64,000 bases of DNA from Acidobacteriota bacterium. GTDB lineage: Bacteria > Acidobacteriota > Terriglobia > Acidiferrales > UBA7541. The notes under the pieces are model-generated. The model searched no databases, had not been told where the DNA came from, and was given only the letters and a program-made list of their open reading frames with translations. A program made the position numbers and the translations under genes. Positions within the stretch are counted from its first letter, which is position 1, and each line of letters begins with the position of its first letter. The DNA lies in the NCBI GenBank assembly GCA_013289665.1, contig JABCZN010000002.1:248001-312000 (forward strand), written 5' to 3'. This document shows, piece after piece, positions 52,146 through 61,505 of this stretch.

Positions 52146-53402
52146 TTACTGGTAGAGGAAATAGCGGCGGCGGACCGCGTCATAAGCGGCAAGGTCTTTG
52201 GCCCAATTAAGGATGATTTCGCTGACAGCTGTGCCGGCCTGGAGTTGCTGGATGGTGGAATCGTTGCCGAGGAGAAAGAGGATTTTGGTTAGATCGAAAT
52301 TGTCGGGATATTTTTTGTAGAGAGCGGCAGCAACTTCGAGGCCTGTGCGCATGGAACGAAGCGCGGCACGGTCGGTTACGCGGACGCCGACGCCGCCGCA
52401 GTGCTGGCCGGCGTAGAGGCCGCTGACGGGAATGAACGGCTGATTGACGAAGTGGACGCCGGGAAGATTTTTTGCGTTGAGTAGTTCGGCGACTTCTTCG
52501 CCGTTGATCCAGGGAGCGCCGAATTCTTCAAAAGGCGCTTCTGTCCCCCGGCCGACCGAGACGCCTGCATTCTGAAGGATTTCGAGGCCGGGATAGAACA
52601 GCGAGCCTTTCAGAGTGCGCAGGTTCGGCGAGGGCGGAATCCATTTCCGTCCGGTGCTTTCAAAAAAATAGTTGCGATGCCAGTTTTTCATCGGAATCAC
52701 GTGGAGTTGGGCGTTGATGTGGTTTTCCGCGTTGAAAAACTGGGCGAGTTCGCCGATGGTGAGGGCGTAGCGGACGGGGAGCGGGTAATAGGCGACGAAG
52801 GCGGTTTTTTCGGCGTCGAGCATGGGGCCTTCGATGATGTCGCCGTTCAACGGGTTCGGGCGGTCGAGCACGAAGAACGCGATATTGCGCTTCGCGGCTT
52901 CTTCCATGCAGTAGGCCATCGTGGTGGTGTAAGTGTAGAAGCGGACGCCAGCGTCCTGGACGTCGAACACGAGAGCGTCTATGCCCTGCAGCATTTCGTC
53001 GGTGGGGCGCAGATGGTCGCCGTAAAGGCTAAAGATGGGCAGTCCGGTCGAAGCGTCTTTGGAGGATGGAAGCTTTTCGTCGGAGTGGCCGGCGATGCCG
53101 TGTTCCGGGCTGAAGAGGGCTACGACTTGCACTCCGGGGGCGTGGGCGAGAACGTTGATCGTGGTGCGCTCCTGATAGTCGAGACCGGTGTGATTGGTGA
53201 TTAATCCGATGTGCTTGCCGCGCAGGGGGGCGAATTTTTCCGCTTCCAGGACGTCGAGCCCGGTCTGGACGCGGCCGGCGCGGCTTCTGCTCCTGGCTGG
53301 TTTGGCGTGGGTCTGAGCCGAAATTGCAGCGCCTGATGAGAGAGCAAGCACGGAACAAATGGCGGAAAGCGCAAATCGAGAAACTCGGGAGCGATGTTTC
53401 AT
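52146..53402 (-). CDS. namZ: NamZ-type exo-beta-N-acetylmuramidase (DUF1343)
   Basis: 418 aa from the ATG at 53402 (MKHRSRVSRFALSAICSVLAL), which gives a clean signal peptide; the upstream in-frame ATG at 53444 adds 14 residues. DUF1343 features are plain: GKHIGLITNHTG, LFSPEHGIAG, DVQDAGVRFYTYTTTM, FFVLDRPNPLNG, and the APWINGEE and VNQPFIPVSGLYAGQHCGGVGV segments. NamZ of Bacillus subtilis removes MurNAc from the non-reducing end of MurNAc-GlcNAc chains. It is divergent from the NagZ-AmiE-type fusion, reproducing the namZ-nagZ-amiE gene linkage of Bacillus, and the two probably act one after the other outside the cytoplasm. Confidence 0.93.
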   Translation of the reverse strand: MKHRSRVSRFALSAICSVLALSSGAAISAQTHAKPARSRSRAGRVQTGLDVLEAEKFAPLRGKHIGLITNHTGLDYQERTTINVLAHAPGVQVVALFSPEHGIAGHSDEKLPSSKDASTGLPIFSLYGDHLRPTDEMLQGIDALVFDVQDAGVRFYTYTTTMAYCMEEAAKRNIAFFVLDRPNPLNGDIIEGPMLDAEKTAFVAYYPLPVRYALTIGELAQFFNAENHINAQLHVIPMKNWHRNYFFESTGRKWIPPSPNLRTLKGSLFYPGLEILQNAGVSVGRGTEAPFEEFGAPWINGEEVAELLNAKNLPGVHFVNQPFIPVSGLYAGQHCGGVGVRVTDRAALRSMRTGLEVAAALYKKYPDNFDLTKILFLLGNDSTIQQLQAGTAVSEIILNWAKDLAAYDAVRRRYFLYQ

Positions 53403-53509
53403 ATGTCCCAATGATATTCTGGAACGGGAGTTCCGCACCTTCATTGTGAGCGGGTAGTGCGCGTGCTATATACAGTCAAGGCATGGGGCACGGCAGGGAT
53501 TTCTCCAAT

Positions 53510-56494
53510 ATGAGCAGGCGAAGCGCCCGGTTGATGCTATTGCCCCTGATTCTTTTATCCTTTATGACACCGAAAGCTCGCAGTCAATCGCGCAGTGGAA
53601 AGTCTCGGAAAACCGCAGCTTCAAAGAGCGCGGCGAAACAAAACCCCACGCAGGCCGCTGCGAACTCCAAATCTTCATCCGAAGACGCCAGCAAGTGGGT
53701 GGAATCGACGCTGAAGGAGATGAGCGTTGAGGAAAAAGTCGGGCAGCTTCTTTTTACCACGTATCACGGCAGCTTTACGGCGACGGACTCCGCGGCTTAT
53801 GCGCAGATGATGCACGACGTGGAAGATTTGCACGTCGGCGGCTTCATCAATGTGACGCAAGGTTCACCGCTGGGTTTTCTGAAGAGCCAGGCGTATCCCT
53901 CGGCGGTGCTGAGCAACCAGTTGCAGGCGAAGTCCAGGCTGCCGCTGCTGATCGGTGCGGATTTCGAACGCGGCACGGCGATGCGGGTGGACGAAGGGAC
54001 ATCATTTCCGACGGCGATGGCAGTGGCGGCGGCTGGAAATCCGAAAGACGCTTATACGATGGGAAAGATCACCGCGCTGGAGGCGCGCGCTGCGGGCATC
54101 CGGTGGATTTACGCGCCGGACGCGGACGTGAACAGCAATCCGGGAAATCCAATTATCAACACGCGGTCATTTGGCGAAAATCCGGAAAGAGTGTCGGAGT
54201 TTGTGACCGAATTTATCCGCGGCGTGCAACAGAACGGTGGACTGGCGACCGCGAAGCATTTCCCCGGGCATGGCGACACCACGGCGGACTCGCACATTGA
54301 TTTGCCGGTGGTGACGGCGGATCGCGCGCGACTTGAAAATCTGGAGTTTGTGCCGTTTCGCGCGGCGATTGCAGCGGGCGTGGGCAGTATCATGACCGGG
54401 CATCTGAGTGTTCCGGCGCTGGAGCCGGACCCGGATACGCCGGCGACGCTTTCGTCGCGAGTGTTGACGGATTTGTTGCGCAAGCAGCTTGGATTTCAGG
54501 GTCTGGTGGTCACCGACGCGATGGACATGGGTGGGATTACAGTCCGATATGCGCCGGGTGATGCGGCGGTGCGCGCTTTTCTTGCCGGCGCGGACGCGTT
54601 GCTGATGCCGCCGGTGCCCGATGCGGCTTATGAAGCGCTGCTGGCGGCCACGCATTCCGGGCAGATTTCGCAGGAGCGGCTTGACGCTTCGGTGCGGCGA
54701 ATCCTGGAAGCGAAAGCGCACCTCGACTTGCAGAAGAACCGGCTGGTGGATGTCGCCGCCCTGAATGAAAAATTCGGCCTCGTGGCTTGGCAGGCGGAGT
54801 CGCAGGAAATTTCCGACCGGGGGATCACGCTGTTGCGCGACACGCCGCTTCGCCTGCCGCTGGACGGAACGAAACCGTCGCGGGCGTTGCTGGTTTGCCT
54901 ATACGCCGACCCGGAACCGTATCCGGGAGAAGATTTGGAGCGTGAGCTGCGCAGGCGGTTTGATTCCGTGGTGACGCTGCGCGCGGACACGAAATTCGCG
55001 AAGGCGGGAAATTTGAAGCTACCCGGCCCGGATTCCTACGACGTCGCTATTCTGGCGCTGTTTGTGCGGGTCAGCGATCGCAAGGGCGATGTGGATGTGC
55101 CGGCCGATCAATTCCCCCTGATCCAACAGATTTACAAAACTGGAAAGCCCGTGATTTCCGTCGGCCTTGGAAGCCCTTACTTGATCGAGCGGTTTCCCCA
55201 GGCGGAGACGTGGCTTTCGGTGTTCGGGATCGCGGACGTAGCGCAGATTTCCGTGGCGCGGGCTTTGTTTGGGGAAATTCCGATTCGCGGGCGCTTGCCG
55301 GTGACGATTCCAGGCGTTGACTTGAAGGCTGGCTACGGAATGCAGGTGCCAGCCAATCCTATGACATTGCAGCCAATGGATGTGCGCGGAGAGTCGTTGT
55401 TGAAGCCGGCTTTTGACGTGGTGGAGAAGGCCATTGCCGACAAGGCGTTTCCCGGCGCGACGCTGGCCGTCGGCTTTCGCGGCAAGTTAAGCGTGCACGC
55501 GGTTGGCAAACAGAAATACGATGCAAAGTCGCCCGCGGTGAGTGCGGACACGATGTACGACATCGCTTCACTCACAAAAGTGGTGGTGACGACGACGCTC
55601 GTGGAAAAGCTGGTGGAGGGCGACTTCCCTTCTCCGCTGAATCTGGATGCGCCGATCGAGCGCTATTTGCCGGAATGGCCGAAAGGGCCACAGCCGGAGT
55701 GGCGCCACAAAGTGACCGTACGCAATTTAATGACCCACACTTCGGGGCTTCCTCCGTTTAAGGAATACTGGCGCACTTCAACGAGCAAGCAGGAGACGCT
55801 GGCGAGAATTATTGCCGAGCCACTGGAATATGAGCCGGGAACGAAGGTCGTGTACTCCGACCTGGGAATTATTTTGATGGCGGAGATTATTCAGCGGCTG
55901 ACCGGGAAGCCGCTCGATGTGCTGGCGAATGAGAATATTTTTGGGCCGCTGGGGATGAACCATTCGATGTACAACCCTCCGAAGGCGATTTGGCCGGAAA
56001 TTGCGCCGACGGAATTCGACAGCCAGTTGCGTCATAGGATGCTGCAAGGAGAAGTCCACGACGAAAATGCGTTTGCCATCGGCGGCGTTTCCGGGCACGC
56101 GGGCGTTTTCAGCACCTCGGGCGACTTGGCGGTATTCTGCCAGATGCTGCTAAATGGCGGAGTATACGCGCACCACCGGATTCTGAGGCGCGCAACGATC
56201 GCGGAATTTACGTCGCCGCAACCGTTGGCCCAAAACACGCGCACTCTAGGCTGGGTGGTGCCGACGGAAGGCAGCTCGAGCGGGCACTATTTCTCTTCGC
56301 ACAGCTACGGGCATACGGGCTTCACCGGAACAACGATCTGGATCGACCCGGACCGGCAGCTTTTCGTGGTGCTGCTGACGAATCGCGTGCACCCGACACG
56401 CGAGAACCACAAAATCGCGGAACTGCGGCCTGCGGTCCACGACGCCATCATGAAATCCCTGGGCCTTGCCACTGAAGCCGTCCCCGCGAGATAG
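53510..56494 (+). CDS. NagZ-type beta-N-acetylglucosaminidase fused to serine beta-lactamase-fold (AmiE-like) hydrolase
   Basis: 994 aa from the ATG at 53510 (MSRRSARLMLLPLILL), giving a signal peptide; an ATG at 53483 adds nine residues. After a Ser/Lys-rich linker comes the GH3 NagZ domain (about 55-390): KHFPGHGDTTADSHIDLP holds the NagZ His/Asp dyad and VTDAMDMG the nucleophile Asp (about residue 336). A GH3 C-terminal Rossmann-like domain spans about 430-610. The last 370 residues are a class C beta-lactamase-fold hydrolase: ASLTKV (Ser-xx-Lys, near 687), YSDLG (Tyr-x-Asp in place of YxN, near 782) and GHTGFTG. In Bacillus, NagZ and AmiE (a MurNAc-L-Ala amidase of this fold) are separate proteins. 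The fusion would release GlcNAc and remove peptides from MurNAc in one polypeptide. Confidence 0.92.
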   Translation: MSRRSARLMLLPLILLSFMTPKARSQSRSGKSRKTAASKSAAKQNPTQAAANSKSSSEDASKWVESTLKEMSVEEKVGQLLFTTYHGSFTATDSAAYAQMMHDVEDLHVGGFINVTQGSPLGFLKSQAYPSAVLSNQLQAKSRLPLLIGADFERGTAMRVDEGTSFPTAMAVAAAGNPKDAYTMGKITALEARAAGIRWIYAPDADVNSNPGNPIINTRSFGENPERVSEFVTEFIRGVQQNGGLATAKHFPGHGDTTADSHIDLPVVTADRARLENLEFVPFRAAIAAGVGSIMTGHLSVPALEPDPDTPATLSSRVLTDLLRKQLGFQGLVVTDAMDMGGITVRYAPGDAAVRAFLAGADALLMPPVPDAAYEALLAATHSGQISQERLDASVRRILEAKAHLDLQKNRLVDVAALNEKFGLVAWQAESQEISDRGITLLRDTPLRLPLDGTKPSRALLVCLYADPEPYPGEDLERELRRRFDSVVTLRADTKFAKAGNLKLPGPDSYDVAILALFVRVSDRKGDVDVPADQFPLIQQIYKTGKPVISVGLGSPYLIERFPQAETWLSVFGIADVAQISVARALFGEIPIRGRLPVTIPGVDLKAGYGMQVPANPMTLQPMDVRGESLLKPAFDVVEKAIADKAFPGATLAVGFRGKLSVHAVGKQKYDAKSPAVSADTMYDIASLTKVVVTTTLVEKLVEGDFPSPLNLDAPIERYLPEWPKGPQPEWRHKVTVRNLMTHTSGLPPFKEYWRTSTSKQETLARIIAEPLEYEPGTKVVYSDLGIILMAEIIQRLTGKPLDVLANENIFGPLGMNHSMYNPPKAIWPEIAPTEFDSQLRHRMLQGEVHDENAFAIGGVSGHAGVFSTSGDLAVFCQMLLNGGVYAHHRILRRATIAEFTSPQPLAQNTRTLGWVVPTEGSSSGHYFSSHSYGHTGFTGTTIWIDPDRQLFVVLLTNRVHPTRENHKIAELRPAVHDAIMKSLGLATEAVPAR

Positions 56495-56499
56495 CCGCG

Positions 56500-56900
56500 C
56501 TAGTGCACAGGAGGATCCGCTGCTGTAGCGGCGCGATTCGCGGTAGTGAACCGCTCAACCCCGGACTCGTCCATAAAGAAACTACGTTCACCTTCTTGAT
56601 ACTTTTGCGGACGAGTGACAACAAAGTAGCGCTCTACGCGGCCCTGAGAGCTTGGCCCGGCTGTCCATAAAATGAATTCGTATCCTGATTTGGTTCCACT
56701 GGCCAGAACCAAATCAATTAGAGACCCGCTGGAATCATTGCCGAGTTCCTCCAGGCTTGTAGCGAAGCCCTATCTGGATGTTCTCTGGCATATTCGATCT
56801 GAGCCAGGAAGATGGTGCGAAGCGGATCCGACGCTCGGGTGTCAAGATGCCCCTTTCTCCAAAGGACTGCCCCAACAATTAGAATCCCCAAAGGACACAC
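56500..56900 (-). pseudogene. Frameshifted acidobacterial pilin-like protein
   Basis: Two adjacent minus-strand reading frames make one protein of a type common in acidobacteria. The N-terminal piece (GTG at 56900) reads CPLGILIVGAVLWRKGH then RASDPLRTIFLAQIEYAREHPD; the second begins GFATSLEELGNDSSG and continues SLIDLVLASGTKSGYEFILW and FFMDESGVERFTT to the stop at 56500. These match the pilin-like pattern (LRTxxxAxxxYAxxxPxxGFxxSLxxLG, LASGTKSGYxF, FFxDxSGVxR). The join needs a one-base change near 56770 (GATAGGGCTTC). The start is uncertain: no ATG or RBS is convincing. Either a genuine pseudogene or a sequence error. Confidence 0.5.
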
Positions 56901-56931
56901 AGAACGCCACCTGAAGAGGCCATTTTTCGCT

Positions 56932-57660
56932 TCACGCAAACTCCTTTTCCACCTGCCGCAAATCCTCGATCCTCCCCAAGTCTCGCCAATAGCAGTCATC
57001 CGCGCGAAACGCCATAATTTTTTCGCCCTCTTTCGCGAGACGAAGATACGTTGGGATAATCGAGAAGACGCCTTCCTCGCTGATCTTTGCAAGGAGTCGC
57101 GGGGAGATGGCATGAATGCCGGAAAATGCGTGGGCCTGCAAGTTCGGCGTGTCGCGAACAAATTCAGGGTCCTGACCACTAACCCACCGCCCACAAAGCT
57201 CGCCCTCCGGACTAAACAGCAATTGCCGCGAGCTTTCACGCTCCTGCGTCACCAATGTTGCGAGCGCAGGATGTTCCGAGTGAAATTTCATCAACTGCTG
57301 CAGATCAATGTTGCTGACGACATCTACATTGTGAAGAAGGAACGGTTCATCCAGGCGGTTGGGTTCCTGGAGAAAGAACCACGCGGCTTTTTTCAGTCCG
57401 CCGCCGGTGTCGAGCAGAAGTTCCTCGCGGGAAAATTCGATCTGCAGGCCAAAATTGTTGTTGGCTTTCAGATATTGGATCACCAGGTCGGCAAAGTGGT
57501 GCACGTTGATGATGACATCGCGCACGCCGAATGAAGCGAGACGCGTGAGTGTCAGTTCCAGCAGCGTGCGGCCGCGGATTTCCACGAGCGCCTTGGGGCG
57601 GTCATTCGTAAGTGGGCGCAGGCGCGTACCAAGGCCCGCGGCGAGAACCATGGCCCTCAT
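56932..57660 (-). CDS. murU: MurU-type N-acetylmuramate-1-phosphate uridylyltransferase
   Basis: 242 aa. The nucleotidyltransferase signature is LAAGLGTRLRPLTNDRPKALVEI; the metal-binding and sugar-binding segments LLHNVDVVSNIDL and LLDTGGGLKKA are those of the MurU/RmlA-like group, and the C-terminus (DDCYWRDLGRIEDL) matches MurU. Product would be UDP-MurNAc from MurNAc-1-P and UTP. The start overlaps the stop of the amgK-rapZ fusion gene by four bases (57657-57660), the amgK-murU pairing of pseudomonads, which firmly supports the function. Confidence 0.9.
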   Translation of the reverse strand: MRAMVLAAGLGTRLRPLTNDRPKALVEIRGRTLLELTLTRLASFGVRDVIINVHHFADLVIQYLKANNNFGLQIEFSREELLLDTGGGLKKAAWFFLQEPNRLDEPFLLHNVDVVSNIDLQQLMKFHSEHPALATLVTQERESSRQLLFSPEGELCGRWVSGQDPEFVRDTPNLQAHAFSGIHAISPRLLAKISEEGVFSIIPTYLRLAKEGEKIMAFRADDCYWRDLGRIEDLRQVEKEFA

Positions 57661-59096
57661 CGGCCGATCTTCTCCATCTCCAGGTGCCGCACCTCCACCT
57701 CGATGCCGCTCTGGCCGCGCAGTCGTTTCGCCAGGTGTTCTGCGAGAAAAACCGAGCGGTGCTGCCCGCCGGTGCAGCCGAACGAGACCATTAGGTTCTT
57801 GAAACCGCGCTGCTGGTAGCTGGCAACGCTGGCTTCGATGAGCGAAATCGCGCTGGCAAGATACTGATGCACTCCTTCCTGCTGGTTCAAATAGTCAATC
57901 ACAGGTGCATCTTTGCCCGTCAGTTGCTTGAAGCGCTCTTCCCTGCCGGGATTCGGCAAGCCGCGGGCATCGAAAATATATCCGCCGCCGTTCCCGGTGT
58001 CGTCCTTGGGTAGATCGTGGTGGAACGAGAAACTGAAAATGCGCACGACGAGCTTTTGCGATTGCGGGTGCGAGGCGGGCGTAAGGCGCTGGAGCTTTTC
58101 GGATGCCAGCATGTTTTGAAACGCGCTCATGAGGGTCGGAAGCTCAATGGGTAACTTCGCATGATGCAGCAGCCAGCGAATGTTTTTCAGGGCATAGGGC
58201 ACGCTTTGCAGAAAGTGCGGTTTGCGTTCGTAGAAGCCGCGGAAACCATAGGCGCCAAGGGCTTGCATGATCCGGACATAGACGAAGGCGTAGTAGTAGC
58301 TTAGAAATGCGTCGCGATCGAGCTTGATATGCGTTCTAAGCGCGTCGAGGTAATCGTTCAGGAGTTGCTGGCGGAGATCCGGCGGCAAATCCGCTTTGGC
58401 GTCAAAGAGCAGCGAGGCAATGTCGTATTGCAACGCGCCCTTTCGGCCGCCCTGATAGTCCACAAAATATGGCTGCGCTCCGCGCAACATGATATTTCGC
58501 GATTGAAAATCGCGATAGAGGAAATAATCGCCGGGGGCAGCCAGAAGAAGGTCCGTGAGGCGGTCAAAGTCATCTTCAAGATCCTGTTCATTAAAGTGGA
58601 TCGCGGCCAGGCGAAGGAAATAATATTTGAAATAGTTAAGGTCCCAGTCGATGGATTGGCGGTCGAATCTCCCGCGTGGGTAGCAAACGGAGTAATCCAG
58701 GTCGCGGCCAGCTTCAATTTGAAAGCGAGGCAACTCCGCGACGACCTTGCGGTAATACTCCACCACCGGTGCAGCGATGGATTCACCCGACCGATTCACA
58801 GAAAGGAAATCAAAGAGAGTCGTGTCGCCAAGATCCTCCTCAAGGTACGCCCCGCGGTCCAGATCCTCTTCGTAGATTTCGGGCACCGGGAGGCCGTGGC
58901 GGCGGAAGTGCCGCGAGAAGGCCAGGAATGCGGCATTCTCCTCACGCACCCCGTACAAAACGCCGATCGCAGACTGATTCCCCCGGAAAAAGCGGATGAT
59001 TTTGCGTCCGGAACCGCCGAGGTCTCCCTGAAGCGGCTGGATGCGCTCCGGGGCGGTGTGGAAATGCTTTTCAAACAGTTTGTTCAGAACGTCCAT
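57657..59096 (-). CDS. amgK: AmgK-type amino-sugar kinase fused to RapZ C-terminal domain
   Basis: 479 aa. Residues about 1-335 are an aminoglycoside-phosphotransferase-fold kinase of the AmgK group: catalytic loop YRDFQSRNIM (Asp196, Asn201), metal Asp in FVDYQGG (Asp213) and LEEDLGDTTLF. AmgK phosphorylates MurNAc and GlcNAc at C1. Residues about 349-476 are a second domain that is the C-terminal domain of RapZ (YvcJ/YhbJ family): IFSFSF, YIFDARGLPNPG, LTGKDAPVIDYL and the loop GCTGGQHRSVFLAEHLA. The RapZ P-loop ATPase N-domain is missing. In E. coli this C-domain binds glucosamine-6-phosphate and the GlmZ RNA. Here its fusion to a cell-wall salvage kinase suggests metabolite-controlled activity. 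It is the first gene of a two-gene unit with murU. Confidence 0.93.
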   Translation of the reverse strand: MDVLNKLFEKHFHTAPERIQPLQGDLGGSGRKIIRFFRGNQSAIGVLYGVREENAAFLAFSRHFRRHGLPVPEIYEEDLDRGAYLEEDLGDTTLFDFLSVNRSGESIAAPVVEYYRKVVAELPRFQIEAGRDLDYSVCYPRGRFDRQSIDWDLNYFKYYFLRLAAIHFNEQDLEDDFDRLTDLLLAAPGDYFLYRDFQSRNIMLRGAQPYFVDYQGGRKGALQYDIASLLFDAKADLPPDLRQQLLNDYLDALRTHIKLDRDAFLSYYYAFVYVRIMQALGAYGFRGFYERKPHFLQSVPYALKNIRWLLHHAKLPIELPTLMSAFQNMLASEKLQRLTPASHPQSQKLVVRIFSFSFHHDLPKDDTGNGGGYIFDARGLPNPGREERFKQLTGKDAPVIDYLNQQEGVHQYLASAISLIEASVASYQQRGFKNLMVSFGCTGGQHRSVFLAEHLAKRLRGQSGIEVEVRHLEMEKIGR

Positions 59097-59274
59097 GAAA
59101 TAGGTTCCAGCTCAATCGGATTTACAAGCGAAACAAGACAAGCTCTTTTCTATCATAGCTGTTCGCCGCGGCACGCATACAATTGGGGGAGCGTTGCTGT
59201 TCCTGTTGATAGGGAAAACGAAACTTACGCGCGTCCCTTTACGTGGAGGTAGGAGGCCCCGTTATACTTTAGAA

Positions 59275-60192
59275 ATGCCCTCACCCAAGGTGGCGCGGAA
59301 CCCTCGCTTGCGGCGGATTACGGAAGAACGGAATGCGGCGTCGAAAGACCTCGACCGGATGAGCTCGCTGGAAATTATCGGGCTGATGAACCGCGAAGAC
59401 CGGAAGGTTGTGCCCGCGGTAGGGCGCGCCGTTCCGGTGATTGCGCGGGCGGTGGATGAAATTGTGAAACGGATGAAATCCGGCGGACGATTGATTTACG
59501 TAGGAGCAGGATCGAGCGGCAGGATCGGGGTTTTGGATGCTTCGGAATGCCCGCCGACGTTTGGCGTGTCGGCCGATCTGGTGCGCGGCGTGATTGCCGG
59601 CGGGAAAAAAGCTCTGACGCGATCGGTGGAGGGCGCGGAGGACCGGCCGGGAGACGCGGCGCGCGATTTGAAGAAGATTCGCCTGACTAAACTTGATTCG
59701 GTCGTGGGGATTGCGGCCAGCGGGACGACACCGTACGTGCTTGGCGGGATTAGTTATGCAAAGCGTCGCGGCGCTCTGACCATCGGAGTAGCCGTGAATC
59801 GCCGCTCGCTTTTGGCAAAATCGGCAGCGATTGCGATCACGCCCGAAGTGGGGCCGGAAATTCTAGCCGGGTCCACCCGGTTGAAGGCTGGCACGTCGCA
59901 AAAAATGGTTCTGAACATGCTCTCTACCGCAGTGATGGTTCGCCTCGGCCATGCATACGACAACCTGATGATCGACGTCGGCGAGGCAAATGAGAAGCTT
60001 AGAGAGCGCGCCAAATGGATTTTGAAACAGGCCAGCGACAGAGACGTGTCCGCGGTTACACGGGCATTGCGTCAAAGCGGACACGATCTTCGTTTAGCGC
60101 TGATTATGTTGAAACGCGGACTGTCCGCAAAGCGAGCTCGCAGACTCCTGTTGCAATCCCGCGGGAACTTGCGGAGAGCATTGGGAGAGTAG
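59275..60192 (+). CDS. murQ: N-acetylmuramic acid 6-phosphate etherase
   Basis: 305 aa from the ATG at 59275 (MPSPKVARNPRLRRITEERN). SIS-type etherase with all family motifs: TEERNAASKDLDRMSSLEIIGLMNREDRKVV pattern, GGRLIYVGAGSSGRIGVLDASECPPTFG, GAED, GIAASGTTPYVLGG, GPEILAGSTRLKAGTSQKMVLNMLST and a NEKLRERAKWIL helix. Its active-site Glu (about 77 in the ASECPPTF run) and Glu in GAED are retained. Cleaves MurNAc-6-P into GlcNAc-6-P and D-lactate. murA follows after 29 bases. The N-terminal start is tentative: a GGAGG lies about 30 bases upstream, too far for an SD. Confidence 0.95.
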   Translation: MPSPKVARNPRLRRITEERNAASKDLDRMSSLEIIGLMNREDRKVVPAVGRAVPVIARAVDEIVKRMKSGGRLIYVGAGSSGRIGVLDASECPPTFGVSADLVRGVIAGGKKALTRSVEGAEDRPGDAARDLKKIRLTKLDSVVGIAASGTTPYVLGGISYAKRRGALTIGVAVNRRSLLAKSAAIAITPEVGPEILAGSTRLKAGTSQKMVLNMLSTAVMVRLGHAYDNLMIDVGEANEKLRERAKWILKQASDRDVSAVTRALRQSGHDLRLALIMLKRGLSAKRARRLLLQSRGNLRRALGE

Positions 60193-60221
60193 CCGAGCCA
60201 CTGGTTTCGGCAGATTTCGAA

Positions 60222-61505
60222 ATGGATAAATTCAAGATACGCGGCGGAAAGCGGCTGCATGGCACGGTAAGAATCAGCGGGGCAAAGAACTCCGCACTGC
60301 CGGCAATGGCGGCGGCACTGCTGACCTCCGAGCCGGTGACGCTGCACAACATTCCCAAGGTGCGCGACATCATCACGATGAGCAAGCTGCTGGCGTTCAT
60401 GTCGGCGAGAGTTTCCGCGCATGAGATTCCCGCCGAAAGCTATACCATCGAAACGAAATCGATGAACGATGCGGTTGCGCCGTATGAATTAGTGAAGACG
60501 ATGCGGGCTTCGATTCTGACACTGGGGCCGGCGATTGCGCGCTCCGGCGTGGCGCATGTTTCGCTGCCCGGCGGCTGCGCGATTGGCGCTCGGCCGGTGG
60601 ACTTGCATCTTGCGGCACTGGAAAAAATGGGCGCACGGATCGCCACGGAGCACGGCTATATCCAGGCCAGCGTGCCGAATGGCGGCCGGTTGAAGGGCGC
60701 GCACATCGTGTTTGAAAAAATCACGGTGACGGGAACGGAAAATATCCTGATGGCCGCGACCCTGGCGGAAGGCGAGACGATTCTCGAAAACGCCGCCCGC
60801 GAACCCGAAATCACCGACCTGATTCACCTGTTGCGAAAAATGGGCGCGGTGATCCATGGTGAAGATACGTCCACGCTGCGCGTACGGGGCGTGGAGAAAC
60901 TGCATGGCGCGACGCATTCGGTGATTCCCGATCGCATCGAGGCTGGGACGTTTCTGATTGCCGGCGCCATCACGGACGGAGAACTTACCATCACCGATTG
61001 CAACCCGGGGCACTTGGGCGCGTTGCTGGCAAAGCTGGGGACTGACGGTGTTAGCGTCGAACGGCTGGAACCGTCCACTTTGCGCGTTCACGCTGCAAAG
61101 CGGCTGGTAGGCTCCGATGTGACTACGGAAGAGTACCCCGGGTTTGCGACCGATATACAGGCACAATACATGGCGCTCGCGACGCAAGCCGAAGGCACGT
61201 CGGTGATCACCGAAACCATATTTGAAAACCGTTTTCTGCACGCCAGCGAAATGATGCGCATGGGTGCCAACATTTCCATTGATGGCCGCCGCGCCGTGGT
61301 CCACGGGCCCGCGAAGCTCTCCGGTACCACCGTGCAGGCTTCGGACCTGCGAGCCAGCGCCGGACTGGTCCTCGCCGCTTTGGTGGCGGAGGGCGAAACC
61401 CTCATCGAACGCGTCTATCACATTGATCGAGGCTACGAGGCCATCGTCGAAAAGCTTCAGGCCCTGGGTGCGGACATCGAGCGCCTTCATGCGACTGGGT
61501 CATAG
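60222..61505 (+). CDS. murA: UDP-N-acetylglucosamine 1-carboxyvinyltransferase
   Basis: 427 aa from the ATG at 60222 ([23 protein letters not shown]). The SGAKNSALP start, the fosfomycin-target Cys in [38 protein letters not shown] and the C-terminal [19 protein letters not shown] all match. The catalytic Cys is present, so fosfomycin sensitivity at this enzyme is expected. It transfers enolpyruvate from PEP to UDP-GlcNAc, the first committed step of peptidoglycan synthesis. Position right after murQ links recycling and synthesis. Confidence 0.97.

Follow-up and report, generated by a model that had tools for sequence, protein, structure and literature searches.

Why does a putative kinase of cell-wall recycling carry the C-terminal domain of RapZ? 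RapZ is known chiefly as an enterobacterial RNA adaptor, but conservation of its C-terminal domain reaches well past the small RNAs served there. The question is raised by one gene in a stretch of 64,000 nucleotides of acidobacterial DNA (the window), for which a fusion of an amino-sugar kinase of the AmgK type to this domain had been predicted from the sequence. The individual parts are known, but neither the architecture shared across phyla nor the subfamily of RapZ C-terminal domains described below was found in the open-licence PMC literature that we searched. Among the papers listed by searches of this literature on RapZ/YvcJ, MurU, recycling and GlcN-6-P, no report of the fusion was seen, none of the papers searched treated AmgK and RapZ together, the RapZ C-terminal domain by name led to a single publication, on the E. 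coli structure, and COG1660 and COG3178 appeared jointly just as a co-listing in a table of a genome paper. The accessible text of two publications on Tannerella AmgK/MurU and of work on the Caulobacter pathway leaves RapZ unmentioned.

A genuine fusion found in four phyla

The fused gene was found exactly where it had been predicted (Table 1), with Pfam matches to APH (PF01636, residues 51-253, E 9e-11) and to the RapZ C-terminal domain (PF22740, residues 350-474, E 3.4e-34, 118.1 bits, cut-off 27), the latter bearing out the assignment of residues 349-476 to the RapZ profile. PF22740 was likewise matched in all 49 aligned fusion members. Because just the C-terminal half of the NCBIfam RapZ model was matched (positions 145-277 of 278, 111 bits, cut-off 244), the P-loop ATPase half of RapZ is, judged from the sequence, absent from the fusion, as had also been proposed. 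Among solved structures, the fusion sequence matched E. coli RapZ (5o5s, E 2.9e-19) and the APH-type protein 3csv. The predicted structure of the full-length protein had a mean pLDDT of 90.8 but a pTM of 0.70, indicating that the domains are well defined and that their mutual placement is not. Modelled alone (pLDDT 93.7, pTM 0.90), the C-terminal domain could be superimposed on the E. coli RapZ-CTD over 125 residues (Z 20.4, 1.7 Å, 36% identity), in line with what the original prediction had expected of such a comparison; the next-best fold after RapZ, among the matches listed, was phosphofructokinase (Z 6.8).

Table 1. Position of the fused gene, its parts and motifs, and neighboring peptidoglycan genes in the window
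Feature	Position	Strand	Basis or remark
NamZ exo-N-acetylmuramidase	52146..53444	(-)	PF07075, PF20732
NagZ-type GH3 fused to beta-lactamase-fold/PBP4B-like serine hydrolase domain, 1003 aa	53483..56494	(+)	PF00933, PF00144
MurU-like nucleotidyltransferase	56932..57660	(-)	best NCBIfam model MurU, 131.9 bits, cut-off 250; overlaps fusion
Fused kinase-RapZ-C gene, 479 aa	57657..59096	(-)	ATG start, single uninterrupted frame
AmgK-like APH-fold kinase part, residues 1-333	58098..59096	(-)	PF01636; fold match 3csv
YRDFQSRN motif, presumed catalytic loop, residues 194-201	58494..58517	(-)	R195, D196, Q198, R200, N201 invariant (49 fusions aligned)
DYQGG motif, residues 213-217	58446..58460	(-)	D213, Q215, G216, G217 invariant (49 fusions aligned)
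RapZ C-terminal-type domain, residues 349-476	57669..58052	(-)	PF22740; Z 20.4 to 5o5q
Five-residue Gly-rich insertion, residues 366-370 in alignment	57987..58001	(-)	92/92 fused or stand-alone, 0/51 canonical RapZ
NPGR motif, residues 382-385, replacing NPHW (E. coli H190, W191)	57942..57953	(-)	alignment
GCTGGQHRS loop, residues 440-448, C-X5-R-S	57753..57779	(-)	C, T, G, G, H, R, S invariant in 143/143
MurQ etherase	59275..60192	(+)	TIGR00274, 384.6 bits, cut-off 302
MurA open frame	60015..61505	(+)	PF00275

The original prediction had allowed for a joining artefact of the assembly. Since relatives were found at 72 loci in many independent assemblies, such an artefact is excluded and the gene in the window is a genuine fusion; Occallatibacter savannae AB23 and Terracidiphilus gabretensis S55 are two isolates whose assemblies are among these. 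The survey of its spread that had been suggested placed the fusion in Acidobacteriota, Elusimicrobiota, Calditrichota and Bacteroidota, and 67 full-length fusions, the window's own among them, could be aligned. A scan of GTDB genomes with a single sequence gave the 72 relatives (by record title, among others, 54 in Acidobacteriota, 9 in Elusimicrobia, 3 in Calditrichota, 4 in Bacteroidales) and is skewed to close relatives because its patterns came from the window sequence. Within the order to which the window's genome belongs, PF22740 was present in 89 of 95 genomes, 44 of which had two matches, as a rule a RapZ and a fusion, and two matches were found in 32 of the 36 genomes of its genus. 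A sample of 119 Acidobacteriota genomes contained, among the matches listed, a full-length fusion in the window's genome and two others; kinases and RapZ were separate in other families of this sample. Among 198 Bacteroidota genomes, 24 had PF22740, in 20 frames of 478-524 aa and 4 frames of 134-149 aa, and no PF22740 frame of canonical RapZ length was detected in this set.

Of 26 genomes with the fusion, 19 also encode canonical RapZ (9/9 Acidobacteriota, 10/10 Elusimicrobia-type), so that the fusion is no simple stand-in for RapZ there; the window's genome has its separate RapZ gene at L112:1495-2388 (-). In the other seven of these 26 genomes (3/3 Calditrichota, 4/4 Bacteroidales), canonical RapZ was not found, and a partial replacement of RapZ by the fusion is possible.

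A separate branch of RapZ-type C-terminal domains

For a closer comparison, we used 143 distinct C-terminal domains, 88 of them fused, 4 stand-alone and 51 from canonical RapZ of Acidobacteriota and Elusimicrobia-type genomes, with the partial fusions L051, L058, L069 and L074, which had stood among 39 non-fused rows of a preceding alignment, excluded from the clean counts. The GCTGGxHRS loop singled out by the original prediction is present, and C247, T248, G249, G250, H252, R253 and S254 (E. coli numbering) are the same in all 143 domains, as are D182, R184 and N188. T248, G249, H252 and R253, which belong to the sulfate/malonate pocket, are thus retained throughout, and 28 columns of the 135-residue domain are invariant across the four phyla. 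From the alignment, the residues identical in all domains could represent an active site just as well as a sensor.

The fused and stand-alone domains differ from RapZ at several positions. They have seven residues in the segment bounded by the D176 and Y179 positions of E. coli RapZ, where all 51 RapZ sequences have two. At the H190 position, Gly was found in 87 of 88 fused and all four stand-alone domains, compared with H in 36, Y in 7, N in 6 and F in 2 of the RapZ sequences. The neighboring W191 position is R, K or Q in 92/92 fused and stand-alone domains and aromatic in 51/51 RapZ. In the E. coli protein, W191 touches the ATPase half according to the available part of the structural report, which also describes YVFD as the strand of the CTD-CTD dimer (PMC5737377). 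Replacement of W191 may therefore be a consequence of the loss of the ATPase half, while the dimer strand is retained as [FY][VI]FD in most fused domains.

The residues of E. coli RapZ that contact RNA are given as K170, R184, K194, R196, R211, R238 and K251 in the accessible portion of PMC9841335. In fused domains, R238 is F or W in 88/88, K251 is Q in 80/88 and the K270 position is mostly hydrophobic; R184 is always retained, and the R196 position has K or R in 74 of 88. Compared with E. coli RapZ, the domain in the window has F at R238, Q at K251, I at K270 and R282, G at K283 and H190, and R at W191, which agrees with the earlier suggestion that a basic RNA-binding patch is lacking. A tree calculated from 34 of the 88 fused, all four stand-alone and 26 of the 51 RapZ domains plus E. 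coli RapZ, with the insertion columns included, separated fused and stand-alone domains from RapZ with an SH-aLRT support of 99. By these sequence criteria, the fused domain is its own branch of RapZ C-terminal domains and a distinct subfamily.

The kinase half and its coupling to the module

Pfam, alignment and predicted structure agree in assigning APH-fold motifs and an APH fold to the kinase part, and its best structural match was the uncharacterized 3csv. From the APH fold, we take YRDFQSRN to be the catalytic loop and the Asp of DYQGG to be the metal-binding position. NCBIfam AmgK models matched the fusion weakly, with 53.3 bits (cut-off 500) and 45 bits (cut-off 550), thresholds that a genuine AmgK from outside the lineage of the models may fail as well. 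The stop codon of the fusion and the start codon of the MurU-like gene overlap in ATGA (57657-57660). Of 100 fused ORFs collected, 90 were distinct. In 77 of these, a MurU-like gene on the same strand is no more than 100 nt away, and in 54 the two genes overlap by 4 bases. In 4 others it was farther off, 3 ran up to the end of the DNA, and near 6 none was found, four of these with only about 1.5 kb in view. Given the weak AmgK scores and the MurU-like partner, the kinase half is probably an amino-sugar kinase for cell-wall recycling that would phosphorylate MurNAc and/or GlcNAc at C1. The predicted MurNAc/GlcNAc kinase thus stands as AmgK-like and partnered with a MurU-like gene, on weaker grounds than had been claimed.

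In the window, the gene lies in a cluster comprising NamZ, the NagZ fusion, the MurU-like gene, the kinase fusion, MurQ and MurA (52146-61505). In L003 and L004, too, the fusion is flanked by this gene set, which is missing from most other loci, so that the context past the MurU-like gene lends little support to the choice of substrate. The MurA frame overlaps MurQ at 60015-60192; translation of MurA probably begins at an internal Met (MDKFKIRGG). AnmK is also encoded in the window's genome.

In the 198 Bacteroidota genomes, a profile of the fused kinases gave two peaks: 25 genomes reached at least 239 bits, and another 42 did not exceed 142 bits. Each of the 24 genomes with RapZ-C had a kinase of the high-scoring clade, 24 of the 25 genomes with this clade had RapZ-C, and profile searches detected RapZ-C in none of the 42 genomes of the low-scoring peak. 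The module is a separate gene in four Bacteroidota genomes and adjoins the kinase in three of them (L174, L176, L177), with the order kinase, RapZ-C, MurU-like in L174 and L177. In the genome G418, the stand-alone RapZ-C (L175:7435-7836) and the kinase (L248:6214-7191) are on different contigs, and a MurU-like gene was not seen next to either. Another genome, G247, encodes a 330-residue kinase of the fused clade followed by a MurU-like gene (L247:6090-7801), and a RapZ-C match was found nowhere in this genome. The module is therefore not strictly required and the kinase can work alone, which makes G247 a natural test of the need for the module.

In a kinase tree, calculated by a quick method and with long branches flagged by the program, fused and split kinases formed one branch (SH-aLRT 97, 49 rows) that was separate from the 22 unfused acidobacterial kinases. 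L174 grouped with a fused kinase (97), and L176/L177 were nested among fused ones (94); the rows L062, L063 and L065, labelled unfused, are cut by contig ends, and L162 equals L174. The simplest reading of this sequence tree is one old fusion followed by at least two later splits.

Possible functions of the module

We favor, with moderate confidence based on sequences and models, a two-domain protein of wall-sugar salvage in which the C-terminal domain binds an amino-sugar phosphate and gates the kinase in cis. Judged from family and operon, the kinase half would make an amino-sugar 1-phosphate (MurNAc-1-P and/or GlcNAc-1-P), which the translationally coupled MurU-like enzyme would convert to the UDP-sugar. 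Once the amino-sugar phosphate is bound by the invariant CTGGxHRS loop, kinase activity would change, and salvage would thereby track the pools of wall precursors. The domains and their fold, the retained pocket residues and dimer strand, the lost RNA contacts, the coupling to the MurU-like gene, the co-occurrence with the kinase, the split modules beside kinases of the fused clade and the coexistence with canonical RapZ support this reading, whereas the exchange of His190 for Gly, the existence of G247, the unsettled placement of the domains, the active-site look of the fully conserved residues, the weak AmgK scores and the seven fusion genomes without canonical RapZ count against it. As the pairing of kinase and RapZ-C is common to four phyla, the domain probably controls, or perhaps works alongside, the recycling step.

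According to the accessible parts of the respective publications, the RapZ-CTD of E. coli binds GlcN-6-P by itself (PMC7073468), and the exchanges H190A, G249W and R253A abolish RapZ activity (PMC9841335). Feedback by GlcN-6-P, as the original prediction had it, is plausible in kind, but is not supported as written in view of the Gly at position 190 and the Gly-rich insertion. With one pocket residue exchanged and a loop added, it is unlikely that the ligand is plain GlcN-6-P in the binding mode of E. coli RapZ; the intact CTGGxHRS loop, combined with these two changes, favors altered specificity. Our guess is a MurNAc- or GlcNAc-phosphate or a product of the pathway.

Alternatively, the C-terminal domain could itself be an enzyme, with Cys441 of the C-X5-R-S loop as nucleophile acting on a sugar phosphate such as MurNAc-6-P from AnmK. 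Release of the free sugar, its phosphorylation at C1 by the kinase half and the MurU-like reaction would then be three successive steps that replace the HAD phosphatase MupP. We consider this explanation unlikely. A C-X5-R-S/T phosphate loop after a strand and before a helix is the motif of Cys-phosphatases of the PTP type; C-X5-R-S occurs in all 143 domains, and in the domain model GCTGGQHRS follows strand 90-97 and precedes helix 103-115, as in the PTP-type motif. Hints of chemistry come from the consulted portion of PMC9841335, in which C247A and C247S abolish the function of E. coli RapZ, the authors suggest a catalytic -SH and a CTD crystal with GlcN-6-P contained density of a likely chemically transformed product. 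The same C247 mutants also fail to bind RNA (PMC9841335), a loss that requires no catalysis. The position of the single-domain gene between kinase and MurU-like gene in L174 and L177 would suit an enzyme. However, the matches listed by Foldseek and VIA-align comprised RapZ, then phosphofructokinase, polynucleotide kinase and others, but did not include a PTP-type phosphatase, and a Pfam search with aligned members gave RapZ_C and noise alone.

Gaps in the recycling pathway count in favor of the enzymatic explanation: AnmK is present in 41 of 50 genomes with the module, and of the 27 Bacteroidota module genomes, 10 have AnmK but lack MurQ, 8 of these 10 without a MupP-model match at E<=1e-15. 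The module is, however, kept in the nine genomes without AnmK, all 10 Acidobacteriota module genomes encode MurQ and HAD phosphatases are plentiful. MurQ was called at 268 bits or more, matches of about 45 bits or less being other SIS-domain proteins, and the MurQ of G222 consists of two pieces at contig ends. Within Bacteroidota, the MupP model was matched at E<=1e-15 in 13/27 module genomes versus 42/42 genomes with unfused AmgK, a contrast that is confounded by lineage and from both groups of which G247, having neither module nor MupP match, was left out. The model (NF009696) is not decisive, since nothing exceeded its cut-off in the 50 module genomes or in 65 further genomes (43 Bacteroidota, 22 Acidobacteriota) and no control passes, Caulobacter included. 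Ten HAD proteins from module genomes had phosphoglycolate-phosphatase or PpaX as top models; for ten from genomes with unfused AmgK, phosphoglycolate-phosphatase models ranked first, often with MupP closer behind. Complementarity with MupP was accordingly dropped as proof of a phosphatase role and kept as a hint. In its strongest form, the enzymatic explanation would hold that RapZ-type C-terminal domains carry a Cys-nucleophile site, that the fused one is a MurNAc-6-P (or GlcNAc-6-P) phosphatase feeding the C1-kinase in a MupP-independent route from MurNAc-6-P to UDP-MurNAc, and that E. coli RapZ is a moonlighting relative; this we regard as doubtful.

An architectural role, in which the domain merely dimerizes the kinase or holds it to the MurU-like enzyme so that the sugar 1-phosphate is channeled, and phosphate binding by the loop is incidental, would fit the mostly retained dimer strand and the translational coupling, but strict conservation in pocket and loop exceeds the needs of a dimerizer and makes this role improbable. 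It is very improbable that the fused domain binds RNA and regulates an mRNA, as E. coli RapZ does with GlmZ/glmS: the shared fold and the invariant R184 would allow it, but R238, K251, K270 and H190 are replaced in most or all fused domains and the ATPase half is gone. For a joining artefact or chance similarity, nothing was found in favor, and the Pfam E-value, the Z-score and 72 loci elsewhere reduce its probability to a negligible level.

A RapZ-C subfamily that is tied to one kinase clade in four phyla and lacks the ATPase half and most RNA contacts offers a simple test between binding, control of the attached enzyme and Cys chemistry. If the module gates or performs a salvage step, it would connect the pools of wall precursors with peptidoglycan recycling, which is the basis of intrinsic fosfomycin resistance in Pseudomonas according to the title of PMC5371407.

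Among known systems, E. coli RapZ shares with the fusion the fold of the C-terminal domain, the CTGGxHRS pocket loop and the dimer strand. Unlike RapZ, the fusion has a kinase in place of the P-loop ATPase half, the Gly-rich insertion, G and R at the positions of H190 and W191 and few of the RNA contacts. MupP, the MurNAc-6-P phosphatase of the same pathway, has a HAD fold and is not known to be related in sequence to the C-terminal domain of the fusion; the two would possibly share a step if this domain were catalytic. GlmR/YvcJ of B. subtilis, described in the available part of PMC7525490 as a RapZ homologue controlling amino-sugar flux, differs in that the proteins are separate and a kinase fusion is absent. 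AmgK, the MurNAc/GlcNAc anomeric kinase of Pseudomonas and Caulobacter, resembles the fusion as an APH-fold kinase adjoining a MurU-like gene; the fusion is distinguished from it by scores far below the AmgK cut-offs, by its additional C-terminal domain and by its separate branch from unfused acidobacterial kinases.
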